Shown here: in pieces, positions 13,433 through 63,860 of the stretch
How positions within the stretch are numbered: position 1 is the stretch's first letter
Layout of the letters: every line of letters starts with the position of its first letter
Assembly (NCBI GenBank): GCA_028281325.1
Contig: JANQKC010000011.1
Coordinates: forward strand, 62,001 to 126,000
Source: Alphaproteobacteria bacterium
GTDB lineage: Bacteria > Pseudomonadota > Alphaproteobacteria > UBA8366
DNA length: 64,000 nucleotides
Direction: 5' to 3'
Notes under the pieces: model-generated
What the model saw: the letters and a program-made list of their open reading frames with translations, nothing else
What the model was told of the DNA's origin: nothing
The model's database searches: none
Position numbers and translations under genes: made by a program

Positions 13433-13506
13433 TGGAGCGGGCGAAGGGAATCGAACCCTCGTCGTAAGCTTGGGAAGCTTCTGCTCTACCATTGAGCTAC
13501 GCCCGC
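13433..13506 (-). tRNA. tRNA-Gly, anticodon CCC
   Basis: Read on the minus strand this folds as a full cloverleaf: acceptor stem GCGGGCG pairing with CGCCCGC, D arm GCTC...GAGC, T arm AGGG-TTCGATT-CCCT, and an encoded CCA end. The anticodon loop is TTCCCAA, flanked by GAAGC and GCTTA, so the anticodon is CCC and the amino acid glycine; the closing anticodon-stem pair is a G-A mismatch. It closely resembles E. coli glyU. Total length is 74 with CCA. Confidence 0.95.
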
Positions 13507-57482: not shown

Positions 57483-58448
57483 ATGACCGTTCAAAATCGA
57501 GGACCCGGCGCAGCGTTGAATCCCGTAAAGTTTCAGCACCCGGACTTCACGGCAACCGGCGACCGACGCGCCGCCGTCGATCTCACCGCGCTCAAAACGC
57601 TATGGTTCAACACCGGCACGTTATGCAATCTCGCCTGCGAGAATTGCTACATCGAGTCGAGCCCGACCAACGACCGGCTGGTCTACATCAGCCTCGCCGA
57701 AGTGACCGGTTACCTGGACGAAATCGCGGCAGACGACCTGGGCACGACGGAGATCGGTTTCACCGGCGGCGAACCCTTCATGAATCCCGACATGTGCGCC
57801 ATGCTGGAGGCAACGCTGTCGCGCGGCCTACAGGCGCTGGTTCTGACGAACGCGATGCGGCCGATGATGAAATGCGCCGACGCGCTGCTTGATCTGAGAG
57901 CGCGTTATGGCGACCGTCTGTTGCTGCGCGTATCGCTCGACCACCATACGGCAGCCTTGCATGAGATGGTGCGCGGCAAGCATTCCTGGCAAACCGCGAT
58001 CGACGGCCTGCGGTGGCTGTCGGACAACGGCTTCAATATCCATGTGGCGAGCCGAACCTGTTGGAACGAGCCAGACCCGGTCATGCGCGCGGGCTTCGCC
58101 CGGATGTTCGAGAAGGAAGGAATCGCAATCGATGCCAACGATCCGGTCGCGACCATGCTGTTGCCGGAAATGGACCAGTCGCTCGACGTACCGGAAATCA
58201 CCGAGCAATGCTGGGATATCCTGGGCGTATCGCCCGATGCGATGATGTGCGCCACATCACGCATGGTGGTGAAGCGCAAGGGGGCGGAGAAGCCCGTCGT
58301 CACGCCGTGCACCCTGCTGCCGTATGACGAGGCGTTCGATATGGGCCATACCTTGGACGAGGCGGCCACGGCGGTGAAACTCAATCATCCGCATTGCTCG
58401 CGGTTTTGCGTGCTCGGCGGCGGCGCCTGCAGTCGAAGCGCGGCCTAG
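57483..58448 (+). CDS. Radical SAM protein with Cys-rich C-terminus
   Basis: A 321-residue enzyme that would cleave S-adenosylmethionine with a [4Fe-4S] cluster to make a radical. Cluster ligands are C48, C52 and C55 in LCNLACENCYIES, and GFTGGEPF (residues 92-99) is the SAM-contact motif. The C-terminus has PCTLLPYDEAFDMGHTLDE and then HCSRFCVLGGGACSRS, four close Cys that could hold an auxiliary cluster as in SPASM-like proteins. Substrate is unknown: small peptide, cofactor or thiol modification are possibilities. It lies 27 bases before a metallophosphoesterase-fold gene. Confidence 0.85.
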   Translation: MTVQNRGPGAALNPVKFQHPDFTATGDRRAAVDLTALKTLWFNTGTLCNLACENCYIESSPTNDRLVYISLAEVTGYLDEIAADDLGTTEIGFTGGEPFMNPDMCAMLEATLSRGLQALVLTNAMRPMMKCADALLDLRARYGDRLLLRVSLDHHTAALHEMVRGKHSWQTAIDGLRWLSDNGFNIHVASRTCWNEPDPVMRAGFARMFEKEGIAIDANDPVATMLLPEMDQSLDVPEITEQCWDILGVSPDAMMCATSRMVVKRKGAEKPVVTPCTLLPYDEAFDMGHTLDEAATAVKLNHPHCSRFCVLGGGACSRSAA

Positions 58449-58475
58449 GGCCGGGCGTCCGCGTCCGGGAGCATC

Positions 58476-59357
58476 GTGACCATCATGCCGCACACACATC
58501 ATCTCGGGTCTTTCGATGAACCGATGCTGGTTTTCGGCGGCCCCTACGGCAACCGTCAAGCCCTCGACGCGCTGCTCGCCACGGCGGCGACGCTCGGCAT
58601 ACCGAACGGCCGCATGCTGTGTACCGGCGATCTGGCAGCCTATGCCGCCGAACCGCAAGCGGTGGCAGACCGTATCCGCGATGCCAGCATCGCCGTGGTC
58701 ATGGGCAATGTGGAAGAGTCGCTCGGCGCCGATGCCGAGGATTGCGGCTGCGGGTTTACCAGCGGCAGCGAATGCGACGTGATGGCCGCGCAATGGTATC
58801 GCTATGCCGCCGACGCGGTCGACCAGGAAACCAAGCGCTGGATGCGCGACTTGCCGCGCCGCATCGACCTCTCCCTCGACGGCGTATCGATTGCAGCGAT
58901 CCACGGCGGCGTCGACCAGATCAACCGTTTCGTGTTTCCGGCGACGCCCACCGCCGAGAAATCCATCGAATTGGACAAGGCCGACACGGACATCGTAATC
59001 GGCGGTCATTCCGGGCTTCCCTTCACCCAATTGCTGGGACGCCGGCTCTGGCACAACGCCGGCGCGATCGGTCTGCCGGCCAACGACGGCACGCCGCGCG
59101 TTTGGTTCAGCCTGCTCCATCCGCATGAGAACGGGATCAGCATCGACCTGCACGCGCTGCACTACGACCACGCCGGCGCGGCCGCCGCAATTCGAGCCGC
59201 CGGCCTGCCAACAGCCTATGCGGAAGCGCTGGAGACGGGCTTCTGGCCGAACGATGACATCATGCCCGACGCCGACCGGCATCGGCGCGGAGTGGCGCTC
59301 ACCGAGCAGACCTTGCTATGGTCGCCATCTTGCCAAGCGGCAGCGGCGGCTGAATGA
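58476..59357 (+). CDS. Metallophosphoesterase-family protein with altered first motif
   Basis: GTG 58476, with CGGGAGC before it, gives 293 residues (ATG 58485 is an alternative). The calcineurin-like fold is recognised from LVFGGPYGNRQALDALL, CTGDLAAYAAEPQAV, VVMGNVEESLG, IAAIHGGVDQIN and IVIGGHSGLPF. In classical enzymes the first motif is D-x-H; here it is G-G-P-Y-G-N, and GNHE is GNVE, so two metal ligands are absent. A DCGCGF plus later C (SECD) cluster replaces the usual loop. From memory, similar proteins keep the same substitutions, so this may be a separate subfamily rather than decay. Confidence 0.75.
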   Translation: MTIMPHTHHLGSFDEPMLVFGGPYGNRQALDALLATAATLGIPNGRMLCTGDLAAYAAEPQAVADRIRDASIAVVMGNVEESLGADAEDCGCGFTSGSECDVMAAQWYRYAADAVDQETKRWMRDLPRRIDLSLDGVSIAAIHGGVDQINRFVFPATPTAEKSIELDKADTDIVIGGHSGLPFTQLLGRRLWHNAGAIGLPANDGTPRVWFSLLHPHENGISIDLHALHYDHAGAAAAIRAAGLPTAYAEALETGFWPNDDIMPDADRHRRGVALTEQTLLWSPSCQAAAAAE

Positions 59358-59397
59358 TTCGCCGGCGCGCCGTGCGCCACTCAATCAGGATCAACCC

Positions 59398-60579
59398 GTG
59401 AGTTATAAATACCCGTATAAGGGCGTCCGCGTCCTCGATGTATCGCAAGGCTTCGCCGGCCCCTATGTCGGCGGCATGCTGTCGCTGTACGGCGCGTCGG
59501 TCATCAAGGTCGAGCCGCCGGAAGGCGACTGGGTCCGCAGCATCGGCAAGGCGTTCGGCGGCAATACGCCGCTCGGCGTCGTCGCCAATCGCGGCAAGCG
59601 CAGCATCGCGATCAACCTGAAGACGGATGCCGGACGGGCGCTGGTTCACCAGATGGCGGAAACCGCCGACGTCTTCCTGGAGAGTTTTCGCCCGGGCGTG
59701 GCGGCCCGGCTGGGCATCGGCTATCCGGACATCAAGAAGATCAATCCGCGGATTATCTACCTATCGGTCAGCGGCTTCGGCCAGGACGGGCCCGACTCGG
59801 GCCGGCCGGCGACCGACACCGTGATTCAGGCCAATTCCGGATTCATGTCGGCAAACGAAGGCATGGACGGCACCCCGCACAAGGCGAATGTGCTGATCGC
59901 CGATACCTCGACGGGAATCTACGGGTTCCAGGCCGTTGCCGCCGCGCTGTTCGCCCGGCAACACGAAACCGAGGGTCTGCATCTCGACGTCAGTCTCATG
60001 CAGTCGACCGCCGCCTTCGTCGCGCCCAAGGTCGTGGAGTACCACGTGGAGAATGGCGCGCCGCGGTTGCTCAACGCGCCCGCCGGCAGCTACCGGACGA
60101 AAGACGGATGGATCGCGGTCACGCTGGTCAAGGAACACCATTTCGAGAAACTGTGCCAGGCGATCGATCGACCCGCGTTGATCGACGACCCGCGTTTCGC
60201 GAATTTCGACACCCGCGCCGAGCATGTCGAGAGTCTAAAGCGGATCATCGGCGAGGCCTTGCTGACCAAGACAACCGGGGATTGGGTCAATACCCTCACC
60301 GAACACGAGGTTCTGTGCAGCCCGATCGGTGATTTCGGCGACTGGCTGGCGGATCCACAGGCCGTCGCGACCCATGCCGCACCGGTCGTCGATCAACCCG
60401 GGATGGGACCGATCCCGATTCCCGCCATCCCGGGGACGGACCCGGACCGCGACGTCGACGCACCGCCCGTCGCCCCATCGGTCGGCGAGCACGGCCGCGA
60501 TATCCTGTCCGAATTCGGGTTCGACGACGACCGGATCGCCGCCCTGGTCCGGGATGGCGCGGTCACCCTGCCGACCTAA
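59398..60579 (+). CDS. CaiB/BaiF family CoA-transferase (second copy)
   Basis: AGGA before the GTG gives 393 residues (MSYKYPYKGVRVLDVSQGFAGPYVGGML). Family features include SLYGASVIKVEPPEGDWVRS, GKRSIAINLKTDAGRALVH, LESFRPGVAARLGIGYPD, VSGFGQDGPDSGRPATDTV and the C-terminal VAPSVGEHGRDILSEFGFDDDRI. It differs strongly from the CoA-transferase at 12-13 kb. It stands 40 bases after the phosphoesterase gene and 16 before the MaoC gene, so CoA-thioester substrates are likely for the operon's end. Confidence 0.9.
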   Translation: MSYKYPYKGVRVLDVSQGFAGPYVGGMLSLYGASVIKVEPPEGDWVRSIGKAFGGNTPLGVVANRGKRSIAINLKTDAGRALVHQMAETADVFLESFRPGVAARLGIGYPDIKKINPRIIYLSVSGFGQDGPDSGRPATDTVIQANSGFMSANEGMDGTPHKANVLIADTSTGIYGFQAVAAALFARQHETEGLHLDVSLMQSTAAFVAPKVVEYHVENGAPRLLNAPAGSYRTKDGWIAVTLVKEHHFEKLCQAIDRPALIDDPRFANFDTRAEHVESLKRIIGEALLTKTTGDWVNTLTEHEVLCSPIGDFGDWLADPQAVATHAAPVVDQPGMGPIPIPAIPGTDPDRDVDAPPVAPSVGEHGRDILSEFGFDDDRIAALVRDGAVTLPT

Positions 60580-60595
60580 CGCGAAAGTCCTTATC

Positions 60596-61084
60596 ATGAG
60601 CGAAACATCGAAAAACCCGGCGGCCCGCGCCGACGAAGGCAGCCATTTCTTCGAAGACCTGCGGATAGGGCAGCAATTCCCCATCCCCTCGCGAACGATG
60701 ACCGACGCGCTCTTTGCGGCCTTCCAACTCGCCTCGGGCGATAACCATCCGAGCCACTACGACGTGGAATATTGCCGCGCACACGGGCATCCGGGCATGC
60801 TGGCGCATGGATTCCAGACCCTGATCCAGACCGCGCCCGGCGCCGGCACCTTTCCCTTCTATATCGGCAGCGCCCTTTTGGGCTTCCTTGAGCAATCGTC
60901 GCGCTTCCTGAAACCGGTCTATGTCGGCGATACGCTCTATTCGATGCTCGAGGTGTCCGACCTGACGCCGCAACGGACCACCGGCGTCGCGACGCTTCGG
61001 TCGACGGTCCATAACCAGAAAGACGAGCTTGTCCTGGAGGGCGAGCTGAAATTTCTGATCCGCCTGCGCGACCCGCGCGTATGA
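60596..61084 (+). CDS. MaoC family (R)-specific enoyl-CoA hydratase-like protein
   Basis: A 162-residue hot-dog fold protein. The catalytic segment is FQLASGDNHPSHYDVEYCRAHGHPGMLAHGF, with the Asp and His of MaoC hydratases. FFEDLRIGQQFPIPSRTMTDA is the typical N-terminal strand, and SRFLKPVYVGDTLYSMLEVSDL the later one. It would add water across an enoyl-CoA double bond, made from a CoA-activated acid by the preceding CoA-transferase. It is the last gene of the four-gene run; apaG follows 104 bases later. Confidence 0.9.
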   Translation: MSETSKNPAARADEGSHFFEDLRIGQQFPIPSRTMTDALFAAFQLASGDNHPSHYDVEYCRAHGHPGMLAHGFQTLIQTAPGAGTFPFYIGSALLGFLEQSSRFLKPVYVGDTLYSMLEVSDLTPQRTTGVATLRSTVHNQKDELVLEGELKFLIRLRDPRV

Positions 61085-61188: not shown

Positions 61189-61581
61189 ATGTACGAACAA
61201 GAAACGCGTCAGATTAAAGTTACGGTTAAGCCATTTTACTTGGAAGACCAATCCTCACCCGACGAAAATCACTTTGTTTGGGCTTACCATGTGCGGATTG
61301 AAAACGACGGCGGCGAGACGGTGCAACTGCGCAACCGGTATTGGCGGATTACGGATGCGCTGGGCCGGGTGCAGGAAGTTCGCGGCCCCGGCGTGGTCGG
61401 GGAGCAACCGGTGCTGAATCCCGGCGATGATTTCGAGTATACGAGCGGGACGCCGCTGCAAACACCATCGGGAATCATGGTGGGGACCTATCAGATGGAA
61501 GCGGCGAGCGGCGAATTCTTCGATGTCGATATACCGGCTTTTTCCCTGGATAGCCCTCACCAGCCGGTACAATTGAACTAA
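61189..61581 (+). CDS. apaG: ApaG family protein
   Basis: A 130-residue protein consisting of the ApaG/F-box-associated immunoglobulin-like domain: [55 protein letters not shown] and [20 protein letters not shown]. The PGVVGEQP and [17 protein letters not shown] motifs match the family strongly. In enterobacteria apaG mutation affects Mg/Co tolerance; its biochemical role is unclear. It is followed by folE on the same strand, 79 bases away. Confidence 0.95.
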
Positions 61582-61660: not shown

Positions 61661-62311
61661 GTGACGGAGCTTAAGAAAGCCCAGAAAACCGGGGTTATCG
61701 ACCTCGAAGCATCCGGCATATCGGACCGTCCGAGCCAGGCCGAGGCCGAAGAAGCCGTTCGCACGCTGATCCGCTGGGCCGGCGACGACCCGACCCGCGA
61801 CGGCCTGATCGGCACACCGGAACGGGTGGTGCGGTCCTATAATGAGTTCTTCGCCGGATACAGCGCGGACCCGGTTGAAATGCTGCAAAGAACCTTCAGC
61901 GAAACAGAAGGTTACGATGAGATGGTGGTCCTGAAGGATATCGACTTCCATTCCCATTGCGAGCATCACATCGTGCCGATTATCGGCAAAGCGCATGTCG
62001 GCTATCTGCCGCGCGAACGGGTCGTCGGCATCAGCAAACTGGCGCGCGTCATCGAGACCTTTGCCCGCCGCCTGCAGATTCAGGAAAAGCTCACGGCGCA
62101 GATCGCCAACACGCTTGAAGAAGTGCTGCAACCGAAGGGCGTGGCCGTCGTTATCGAAGCGGTTCACCAATGCATGACAACCCGCGGGGTCAAGAAGCAG
62201 GGCGTTTCCCTCGTGACCAGCCGCATGCTCGGCCAGTTCCGGGACGACGCAAAGACGCGCCGTGAGTTCGTATCGATCATCGGCAATCCCGGAAACTCGA
62301 TCGGACACTGA
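61661..62311 (+). CDS. folE: GTP cyclohydrolase I
   Basis: FolE makes 7,8-dihydroneopterin triphosphate from GTP, the first step of folate and queuosine-type pathways. The 216-residue protein has zinc and active-site residues in [23 protein letters not shown], and in [38 protein letters not shown] is the conserved substrate loop. GTG 61661 follows AAGGAG. It is a type IA zinc enzyme of normal length with a short N-terminal extension ([18 protein letters not shown]). Confidence 0.97.
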
Positions 62312-62411: not shown

Positions 62412-63860
62412 TTGATCGATTTCCGACCCATCCTGTTCATCATCGGCATCTTAATGTCGACCCTCGCGCTGGCCATGTGCCTGCCGGCGGTGGCGGACGC
62501 CGCCGTGAACAACCCGGACTGGGGGGTCTTCGCGCTGGCCGCCGCCTTCACCCTGTTGATCGGGGTCATGCTCATGCTGACGGCGCGGTCCCGGGCGCGC
62601 AACCTCAACCAGCGCCAGGCCTTCATCCTGACGGCCTTGAGCTGGACCATCATCCCCGCTTTCGGCGCCTTGCCCTTTACCTTCTCCGAATTGGAGTTGA
62701 GCTACACGGACTCCTTCTTCGAGGCGATGTCCGGCATCACGACGACCGGATCGACCGTGCTCACCGGGCTCGATTTCGCGCCGCCGGGGATTCTGATCTG
62801 GCGCGCCCTGCTGCAATGGCTCGGCGGGATCGGCATCATCGCCATGGCGATCGCGATCCTGCCCATGTTGCAGGTCGGCGGCATGCAGCTTTTCCGGATG
62901 GAATCCTCCGATAGCTCGGACAAGGTGCTGCCCCGCGCCGCCCAACTCATCACCTATATCGGCTTCATCTACCTCGGCATGACCATGTTGTGTGCGCTGT
63001 CCTATTGGTTTGCCGGCATGCGCGGCTTCGATGCGGTGGCGCATGCGATGACCACCATCGCGACCGGCGGCTTCTCGACCAGCGACCAATCGATTGGGCA
63101 TTTCGCCAGCGCGAAGATCGACACGATTGCCGTCGTCTTCATGCTGCTCGGCAGTCTGCCCTTCGTTCTCTACCTGCGCGCCCTGCGCGGCAACCCGGGA
63201 AGCCTGTGGCGCGACAGCCAGGTCCATTGGTTCCTGATGATCGTGCTGCTCGCCGTCACGGCCATGGCGCTTCATCTGTATCTGAACAACGGCTTCGGCC
63301 TGCGGGAGGCGTTCCGTCTGGCGTCGTTCAACGTGGTGTCGATCATCACCGGGACCGGCTATGCGACCACCGATTTCGGCCTGTGGGGCACGTTCGGCTT
63401 GACGTTGCTGTTCTTCCTGATGTTTGTCGGCGGGTGCGCGGGATCGACCACTTGCGGCATCAAAGTCTTCCGCTTTCAGGTCCTCTACGCGACCGCCGTC
63501 ACGCAGATTCGCCGGCTGCTAGAACCGCACGGCGTCTTCATCTCCTACTACAACGGCAAGCCGATCCCGTATTCCGTCGGCGACTCGGTGATGAGCTTCT
63601 TCTTTCTTTACGCCCTGTGCTTCGCGATCATCGCCATCGGCCTCGGCATGATCGGCTTGGACTTCCTGACCGCGGTGTCCGGCGCGGCGACGGCGATATC
63701 GAATGTCGGTCCCGGACTCGGCGATGTCATCGGCCCGGCCGGCACCTTCGCATCCCTGCCGGACAGCGCGAAATGGCTGCTCAGCCTCGGCATGCTGCTG
63801 GGCCGGCTGGAATTGTTCACGATCCTGGTGATGTTGGCGCCCGCTTTCTGGCGCCGCTGA
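62412..63860 (+). CDS. trkH: Trk-type potassium uptake channel, TrkH family
   Basis: A 482-residue inner-membrane potassium channel. Four pore-loop segments are seen: AMSGITTTGSTVLTG, AMTTIATGGFSTSDQ, SIITGTGYATTDFG and SGAATAISNVGPGLGDVIG, each with a Gly of the selectivity filter. The TTG start gives MIDFRPILFIIGILMS. It would work with a TrkA-type cytoplasmic NAD/ATP-sensing subunit, not present in the window. No Shine-Dalgarno sequence is clear, and the preceding gene folE has an unrelated function. Confidence 0.92.
   Translation: MIDFRPILFIIGILMSTLALAMCLPAVADAAVNNPDWGVFALAAAFTLLIGVMLMLTARSRARNLNQRQAFILTALSWTIIPAFGALPFTFSELELSYTDSFFEAMSGITTTGSTVLTGLDFAPPGILIWRALLQWLGGIGIIAMAIAILPMLQVGGMQLFRMESSDSSDKVLPRAAQLITYIGFIYLGMTMLCALSYWFAGMRGFDAVAHAMTTIATGGFSTSDQSIGHFASAKIDTIAVVFMLLGSLPFVLYLRALRGNPGSLWRDSQVHWFLMIVLLAVTAMALHLYLNNGFGLREAFRLASFNVVSIITGTGYATTDFGLWGTFGLTLLFFLMFVGGCAGSTTCGIKVFRFQVLYATAVTQIRRLLEPHGVFISYYNGKPIPYSVGDSVMSFFFLYALCFAIIAIGLGMIGLDFLTAVSGAATAISNVGPGLGDVIGPAGTFASLPDSAKWLLSLGMLLGRLELFTILVMLAPAFWRR

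Follow-up and report, generated by a model that had tools for sequence, protein, structure and literature searches.

Introduction

Arsenosugars are major organic arsenic compounds in seaweeds, and the known bacterial route to them depends on ArsS. In this route it is ArsS that adenosylates arsenic (Cheng et al. 2021, as cited in PMC12159101). A second relevant protein is Car1 of Rufibacter tibetensis, which is described as an arsenate reductase with a metallophosphoesterase (MPE) fold (Shen et al. 2024, as cited in PMC12124457) and, according to the citing article, requires both Cys74 and Cys76 (PMC12124457). In this study, we analyzed a stretch of 64,000 nucleotides of alphaproteobacterial DNA (contig JANQKC010000011.1; hereafter the window) in which a gene for a radical S-adenosylmethionine (SAM) protein is followed directly by a gene for an altered MPE. 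On balance, we favor the view that this pair is an entry module for the biosynthesis of arsenosugar-type organoarsenicals, composed of an ArsS-like radical SAM protein and a Car1-like reductase. No description of the radical SAM-MPE pair was found in the open-access literature that we searched, a search in which subscription papers were mostly not included.

Results

A conserved radical SAM-MPE gene pair

The radical SAM and MPE genes form a real, conserved two-gene module. Our sample comprised 289 alphaproteobacterial genomes from 224 genera, and the co-occurrence p-values given below ignore kinship among them. Members of the radical SAM family were present in 83 of these genomes (29%) and members of the MPE family, defined in the genome search by E < 1e-50, in 20, with 17 genomes carrying both. 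The two genes are same-strand neighbors separated by 13 to 67 bases in eight genomes, and in G095 a single open reading frame (ORF) of 717 amino acids fuses the MPE, which comes first, to the radical SAM protein. Of the 17 sampled genomes with both families, 9 therefore show adjacency or fusion, and the probability of adjacency by chance is negligible. A near relative of the window (L001) likewise carries the adjacent pair.

An MPE-fold protein resembling Car1-type reductases

The MPE carries GGPYGN where D-x-H-G-N would be expected, as well as the cysteine motif DCGCGF. Its score against PF12850 (33.7 bits; cut-off, 27) is that of a protein with the calcineurin-like metallophosphoesterase fold, and the solved folds closest to its AlphaFold2 model (predicted local distance difference test, 91) are SapH, 3rqz, 1nnw and 2gju, with Z values of 25-26. 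When 27 homologs are aligned, the M2 half-site is seen to be kept (D52, N78, H143 and H178) and the M1 ligands of the family to be lost, with D-x-H replaced by GGPYGN and GHTH by GH-x-G; the H of GNH is gone as well. Of the motifs that make up a full binuclear site (D-x-H, GD, GNH, H and GHxH), this protein keeps GD, GN, H143 and H178, and C90, C92 and C100 are invariant in all 27 homologs. Four generic MPEs from the same genomes, used as controls (L029, L030, L032 and L033), retain their metal ligands and have no CxC; L028, L031 and L034-L037, translated out of frame, were left aside.

Car1 is reportedly coupled to thioredoxin, with Cys74 serving as the nucleophile and Cys76 as the resolving cysteine. 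We compared the window MPE with this enzyme through a Car1-type relative from Hymenobacter and not through the sequence of Car1 itself. The Hymenobacter protein is encoded within an ars operon and carries C74-G-C76 together with every metal ligand. It aligns with the window MPE over 256 amino acids (E 7e-39), and C90-G-C92 falls in register with C74-G-C76. The likeness to Car1 consists of the MPE fold, a CxC in the Cys74/Cys76 position after a GN-x-(D/E) motif, and occurrence in ars operons. This last feature is displayed by relatives of the MPE and not by the window locus itself. For example, the operon at L004 reads arsR-arsI-arsC-aquaporin-MPE, with the MPE last (the contig is only 4 kb long), and at L003 the MPE lies downstream of arsC and an aquaporin gene. 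In contrast to Car1, the window MPE lacks a binuclear metal site, having lost the M1 ligands (GGPYGN, GHSG), has V or C as the third residue of GNH/GNY, and possesses both the extra invariant C100 and a C-terminal extension. Because its CxC is in register with that of the Hymenobacter relative and generic MPEs lack this motif, the family looks, from its sequence, like a Car1-type protein minus half of its metal site and plus a third cysteine. The MPE is shaped like a phosphatase and has probably been turned into an arsenic reductase.

A gene for a sodium:solute symporter adjoins the MPE gene in Marinobacterium, Oceanospirillum and G053. On plasmid pHP-187 of Marinobacter adhaerens, it adjoins a divergent radical SAM homolog that is split in two and unannotated. 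These cases together are the loci L005-L007, L039 and L175. This symporter may import an arsenical or its precursor.

An ArsS-like radical SAM protein

The radical SAM protein has its cluster cysteines in the arrangement C48-x3-C52-x2-C55, matching the CX3CX2C pattern of the superfamily, scores 63.9 bits against PF04055 (cut-off, 29.5), and ends with HCSRFCVLGGGACS. In an alignment of 50 homologs, C48, C52 and C55 are invariant, as are C256, C276, C305, C309 and C316. The protein falls below all NCBIfam cut-offs. Its best score is with the Rv1681 family (NF049973; 103 bits against a cut-off of 380), a match that spans the core at residues 38-216 and stops short of the C-terminal part. The score with ArsS (TIGR04167) is 55.4 bits, covers only residues 35-186 and lies under the cut-off of 300. 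Moreover, the C-terminal domain of ArsS (PF12345/DUF3641), which true ArsS matches at 1.1e-54, was found neither in the window protein nor in a divergent member of its family (L180). Nevertheless, the radical SAM core domain can be aligned with that of ArsS (hhalign 98.3%, 174 columns), the C-terminal cysteines occur in a similar order (MC ... C ... HC ... C ... C), and the two families share their partner genes as well as an operon slot. Among the sampled genomes, ArsS and the radical SAM family are mutually exclusive.

Association with "arsenosugar" transferases, ArsS and ArsM

The radical SAM family is nearly always accompanied by two transferase families that NCBIfam assigns by name to arsenosugar biosynthesis. 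Of the 83 genomes with the radical SAM family, 79 have TIGR04283 (Fisher 5.7e-42, 289 genomes) and 78 have TIGR04282 (p about 1e-41, 289 genomes), and 18 of the 20 MPE genomes have both. The radical SAM family shows the genomic partnership with TIGR04282 and TIGR04283 that is characteristic of ArsS, in both co-occurrence and shared clusters. In the window's genome, the TIGR04282/TIGR04283 pair is located on contig C10 (126858-128074), away from the radical SAM and MPE genes. A second TIGR04283 transferase scoring above the cut-off is encoded at C10:32301-32963, with no TIGR04282 gene adjacent.

True ArsS (TIGR04167) was found in 2 of the 289 genomes, G014 and G147, where the radical SAM family is absent and the MPE resides inside an ArsS-MTAP-transferase cluster. 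The gammaproteobacterium Oceanospirillum maris has the operon ArsS-TIGR04283-TIGR04282, and two Marinobacterium genomes that lack ArsS have TIGR04282-radical SAM-TIGR04283, the radical SAM protein being about 35% identical. All three genomes also carry the MPE. Hence, within the Oceanospirillaceae, the radical SAM family and ArsS exchange the same operon slot.

ArsM is likewise linked to the radical SAM family, which is present in 14 of the 18 ArsM genomes (p 1.2e-5). The two genes lie 32 bases apart in G167, and in G116 and G244 ArsM, the radical SAM gene and the transferases share one cluster. A longer run on a plasmid of Roseomonas haemaphysalidis comprises TIGR04282, DUF547, a radical SAM gene (459 amino acids), a window-type radical SAM gene, a PhnD/PhnE/ABC importer and the MPE. 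In Burkholderia glumae, a radical SAM and DUF547 gene pair follows arsS.

Several further genes recur near these clusters. In G167 and G082, a gene next to the transferases had seemed MTAP-like and proved to encode a fatty-acid hydroxylase (OlsE-like). It adjoins the TIGR04282/TIGR04283 pair in both cases (L143 9123-10001 in G167; L149 7300-8148 in G082), and the product may be lipid-linked. A flavin adenine dinucleotide-dependent oxidoreductase resembling MerA and dihydrolipoamide dehydrogenase, sometimes accompanied by a VTT-domain membrane protein, is found near radical SAM genes, the MPE-radical SAM fusion and ArsS clusters (L041 12602-14029, L089, L092, L100, L101, L125 and L174), where a further redox step is possible. 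Finally, some ArsM-like methyltransferase genes contain one in-frame TGA (L183 in G093, L184 in G194, and also G287, G281 and G208). In G093 and G194 this codon lies within WTA-U-IAGGLPCAGW, resembling selenocysteine in place of a cysteine of the catalytic region; NCBIfam already includes ArsM selenoprotein models (NF041537 and NF041536).

The window locus and its neighbors

The genes of the locus are listed in Table 1. An original prediction, made from the window sequence alone, had described a four-gene run with spacings of 27 bases (radical SAM to MPE), 40 bases (MPE to CoA-transferase) and 16 bases (CoA-transferase to MaoC), and had drawn attention to GGPYGN, DCGCGF and the radical SAM cysteine groups. 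All of these features were confirmed in the sequence and its ORFs, in agreement with Pfam. The cysteine motifs are not due to chance, as is evident from their invariance in 50 radical SAM and 27 MPE homologs. Its proposal that the two cysteine-bearing proteins work together and have an altered chemistry is upheld, and their adjacency, fusion included, is conserved as noted above. However, the inclusion of the CoA-transferase and MaoC genes in the pathway was rejected on synteny. L001, the nearest relative, is alone in having both genes downstream of the pair, and because metZ, apaG, folE and trkH follow it in other genomes, we place both outside the module. A CoA-transferase of 49% identity follows the radical SAM gene at L109, and in many alphaproteobacteria the radical SAM gene is followed by apaG-folE-trkH in a conserved order. 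The MPE gene was assigned a GTG start at 58476, with an in-frame ATG at 58485 being equally likely, and the CoA-transferase gene also starts with GTG (59398).

Table 1. Genes of the radical SAM-MPE locus, in window coordinates
Feature	Position	Strand	Pfam match	Placement
Radical SAM protein, ArsS-like, 321 aa	57483-58448	+	PF04055 (Radical_SAM) 2.6e-17	
MPE-fold protein (altered metallophosphoesterase), Car1-like, 293 aa	58476-59357	+	PF12850 (Metallophos_2) 4.5e-8	
CoA-transferase family III	59398-60579	+	PF02515 (CoA_transf_3) 1.4e-104	Neighbor, judged outside module
MaoC-like hydratase	60596-61084	+	PF01575 7.3e-12	Neighbor, judged outside module
apaG	61189-61581	+		Housekeeping gene, outside module
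folE	61661-62311	+		Housekeeping gene, outside module
trkH	62412-63860	+		Housekeeping gene, outside module

Small ORFs beside the radical SAM gene were also compared across loci as candidates for a peptide substrate, and the only recurrent one proved to be tRNA-Gly(CCC) misread as protein. At L102, L095, L106, L050 and L087, this tRNA gene directly precedes the radical SAM gene on the opposite strand, giving the false impression of a conserved small peptide. In the window, tRNA-Gly(CCC) is encoded at 13433-13506, distant from the pair.

Discussion

A role for the radical SAM-MPE pair in arsenic metabolism is suggested by several kinds of observation, which include co-occurrence with the transferases, shared clusters, the exchange of an operon slot with ArsS, gene fusion, relatives within ars operons and the alignment of the CxC motif. 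The substrate, the reaction and the order of steps are what we infer from these. The MPE would supply trivalent arsenic by reducing pentavalent arsenic in the manner of Car1. Its retained M2 half-site would bind the oxyanion, C90 would attack the pentavalent arsenic, and C92 (or C100) would resolve the adduct as a disulfide that thioredoxin resets. Without M1, the protein could be suited to a substrate poorer in oxygen atoms, for example dimethylarsinate. The role of ArsS would then fall to the radical SAM protein, with a [4Fe-4S] cluster at C48, C52 and C55 cleaving SAM and the resulting 5′-deoxyadenosyl radical being joined to trivalent, probably dimethylated, arsenic, while the C-terminal cysteines would coordinate one or two auxiliary clusters. 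The adenosyl product would pass to the TIGR04282/TIGR04283 pair encoded on contig C10.

This model also bears on the two redox or metal cysteine clusters postulated in the original prediction. For the DCGCGF motif, the redox CxC seen in Car1-type arsenate reductases offers a better explanation than a novel metal cluster does, and the C-terminal cysteines of the radical SAM protein are probably arranged in the usual way for auxiliary clusters.

Some of our findings weigh against an arsenosugar module. The radical SAM protein fails both the TIGR04167 score and the PF12345 test for membership in ArsS, and over the C-terminal half its resemblance to ArsS is weak (E about 2e-4, probability 48%). 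Because of the sub-cut-off scores, the missing PF12345 and this weak profile match, we class the protein as ArsS-like and do not count it as a member of ArsS. Car1 is said to be a binuclear metal enzyme, and the MPE is without M1 ligands. In addition, ArsM was detected in only 14 of the 83 radical SAM genomes, with most genomes carrying the pair, including that of the window, having none. However, no ArsM was detected in the ArsS-bearing G014, G147 and Oceanospirillum maris either, and since true-ArsS genomes also lack detectable ArsM, its absence alone is no argument against the pathway; a methylated arsenic substrate could be imported. The "arsenosugar" names of TIGR04282 and TIGR04283 rest, to our knowledge, on association. 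Furthermore, 21 genomes hold both transferases with neither ArsS nor the radical SAM family, and for this reason the transferases may serve other pathways.

Two alternatives deserve consideration, both of which we regard as improbable. In the first, the pathway is the same and the MPE would work as a mononuclear phosphohydrolase on an intermediate, either a phosphorylated arsenosugar or a nucleotide, with its three cysteines being structural or binding zinc or As(III). The invariance of the M2 ligands D52, N78, H143 and H178 is consistent with such an activity, as is the fact that the MPE has as neighbors transferases whose products may be phosphorylated sugars. Moreover, its closest solved relative is SapH (Spr1479, 3qfm), an asymmetric diadenosine tetraphosphate (Ap4A) hydrolase and phosphodiesterase (VIA-align Z 25.7, 244 residues, root-mean-square deviation 2.7). 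SapH is about 21% identical, retains D-x-H and G-H-x-H and shows no CxC there. However, the loss from the MPE of D-x-H, the second GHxH histidine and the GNH histidine leaves neither an M1 site nor a catalytic acid. The register of its CxC with that of Car1-type reductases also argues against a phosphohydrolase, as does the L004 MPE, which ends an ars operon without transferases on its short contig.

The second alternative, which we likewise consider unlikely, is that the pathway does not involve arsenic, and that the radical SAM protein adenosylates another acceptor from which TIGR04282 and TIGR04283 finish a non-arsenical, nucleoside-derived sugar. The scarcity of ArsM among module genomes and the associative origin of the NCBIfam arsenosugar labels would be accommodated in this way, as would the housekeeping genes that surround the transferases in many alphaproteobacteria. 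It is more difficult to reconcile with the clustering of ArsM and the radical SAM gene in G167, G116 and G244, with the swapping of an operon slot between the radical SAM family and ArsS, or with a Car1-like MPE that occurs in the ars operons of relatives. By far the least probable is a peptide-modifying system with a gene for a small substrate peptide near the pair, for which the original prediction suggested a search, since the SPASM-like C-terminal cysteines and weak family scores to sactipeptide maturases that recommend it are outweighed by gaps of 13-67 bases that are too short for a gene between the pair members, by a search in which only the misread tRNA-Gly recurred, and by links to nucleotide-sugar-type transferases, ArsM and ars genes that do not fit.

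Returning to the arsenosugar module, a more far-reaching possibility can be put forward tentatively. The radical SAM family might be a widespread, previously undescribed second type of ArsS, present in 29% of the sampled alphaproteobacteria, and the MPE might belong to a new class of mononuclear, three-cysteine reductases of the MPE fold, possibly reducing dimethylarsinate and not arsenate. Where the two proteins are fused, reduction of As(V) to As(III) would feed radical adenosylation directly, and alphaproteobacteria would constitute a major unrecognized source of arsenosugars.

If the proposed function is correct, a stand-in for ArsS exists in 83 of 289 genomes versus 2 of 289 for ArsS itself, and bacterial arsenosugar production would be far broader than thought, with a dedicated reductase accompanying this stand-in in some genomes. 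A widespread radical SAM family that is named by no NCBIfam model gains a candidate function, as do MPE-like proteins that have so far been annotated merely as metallophosphoesterases. The role of the fused MPE-radical SAM protein would become a practical question that few assays are needed to address.

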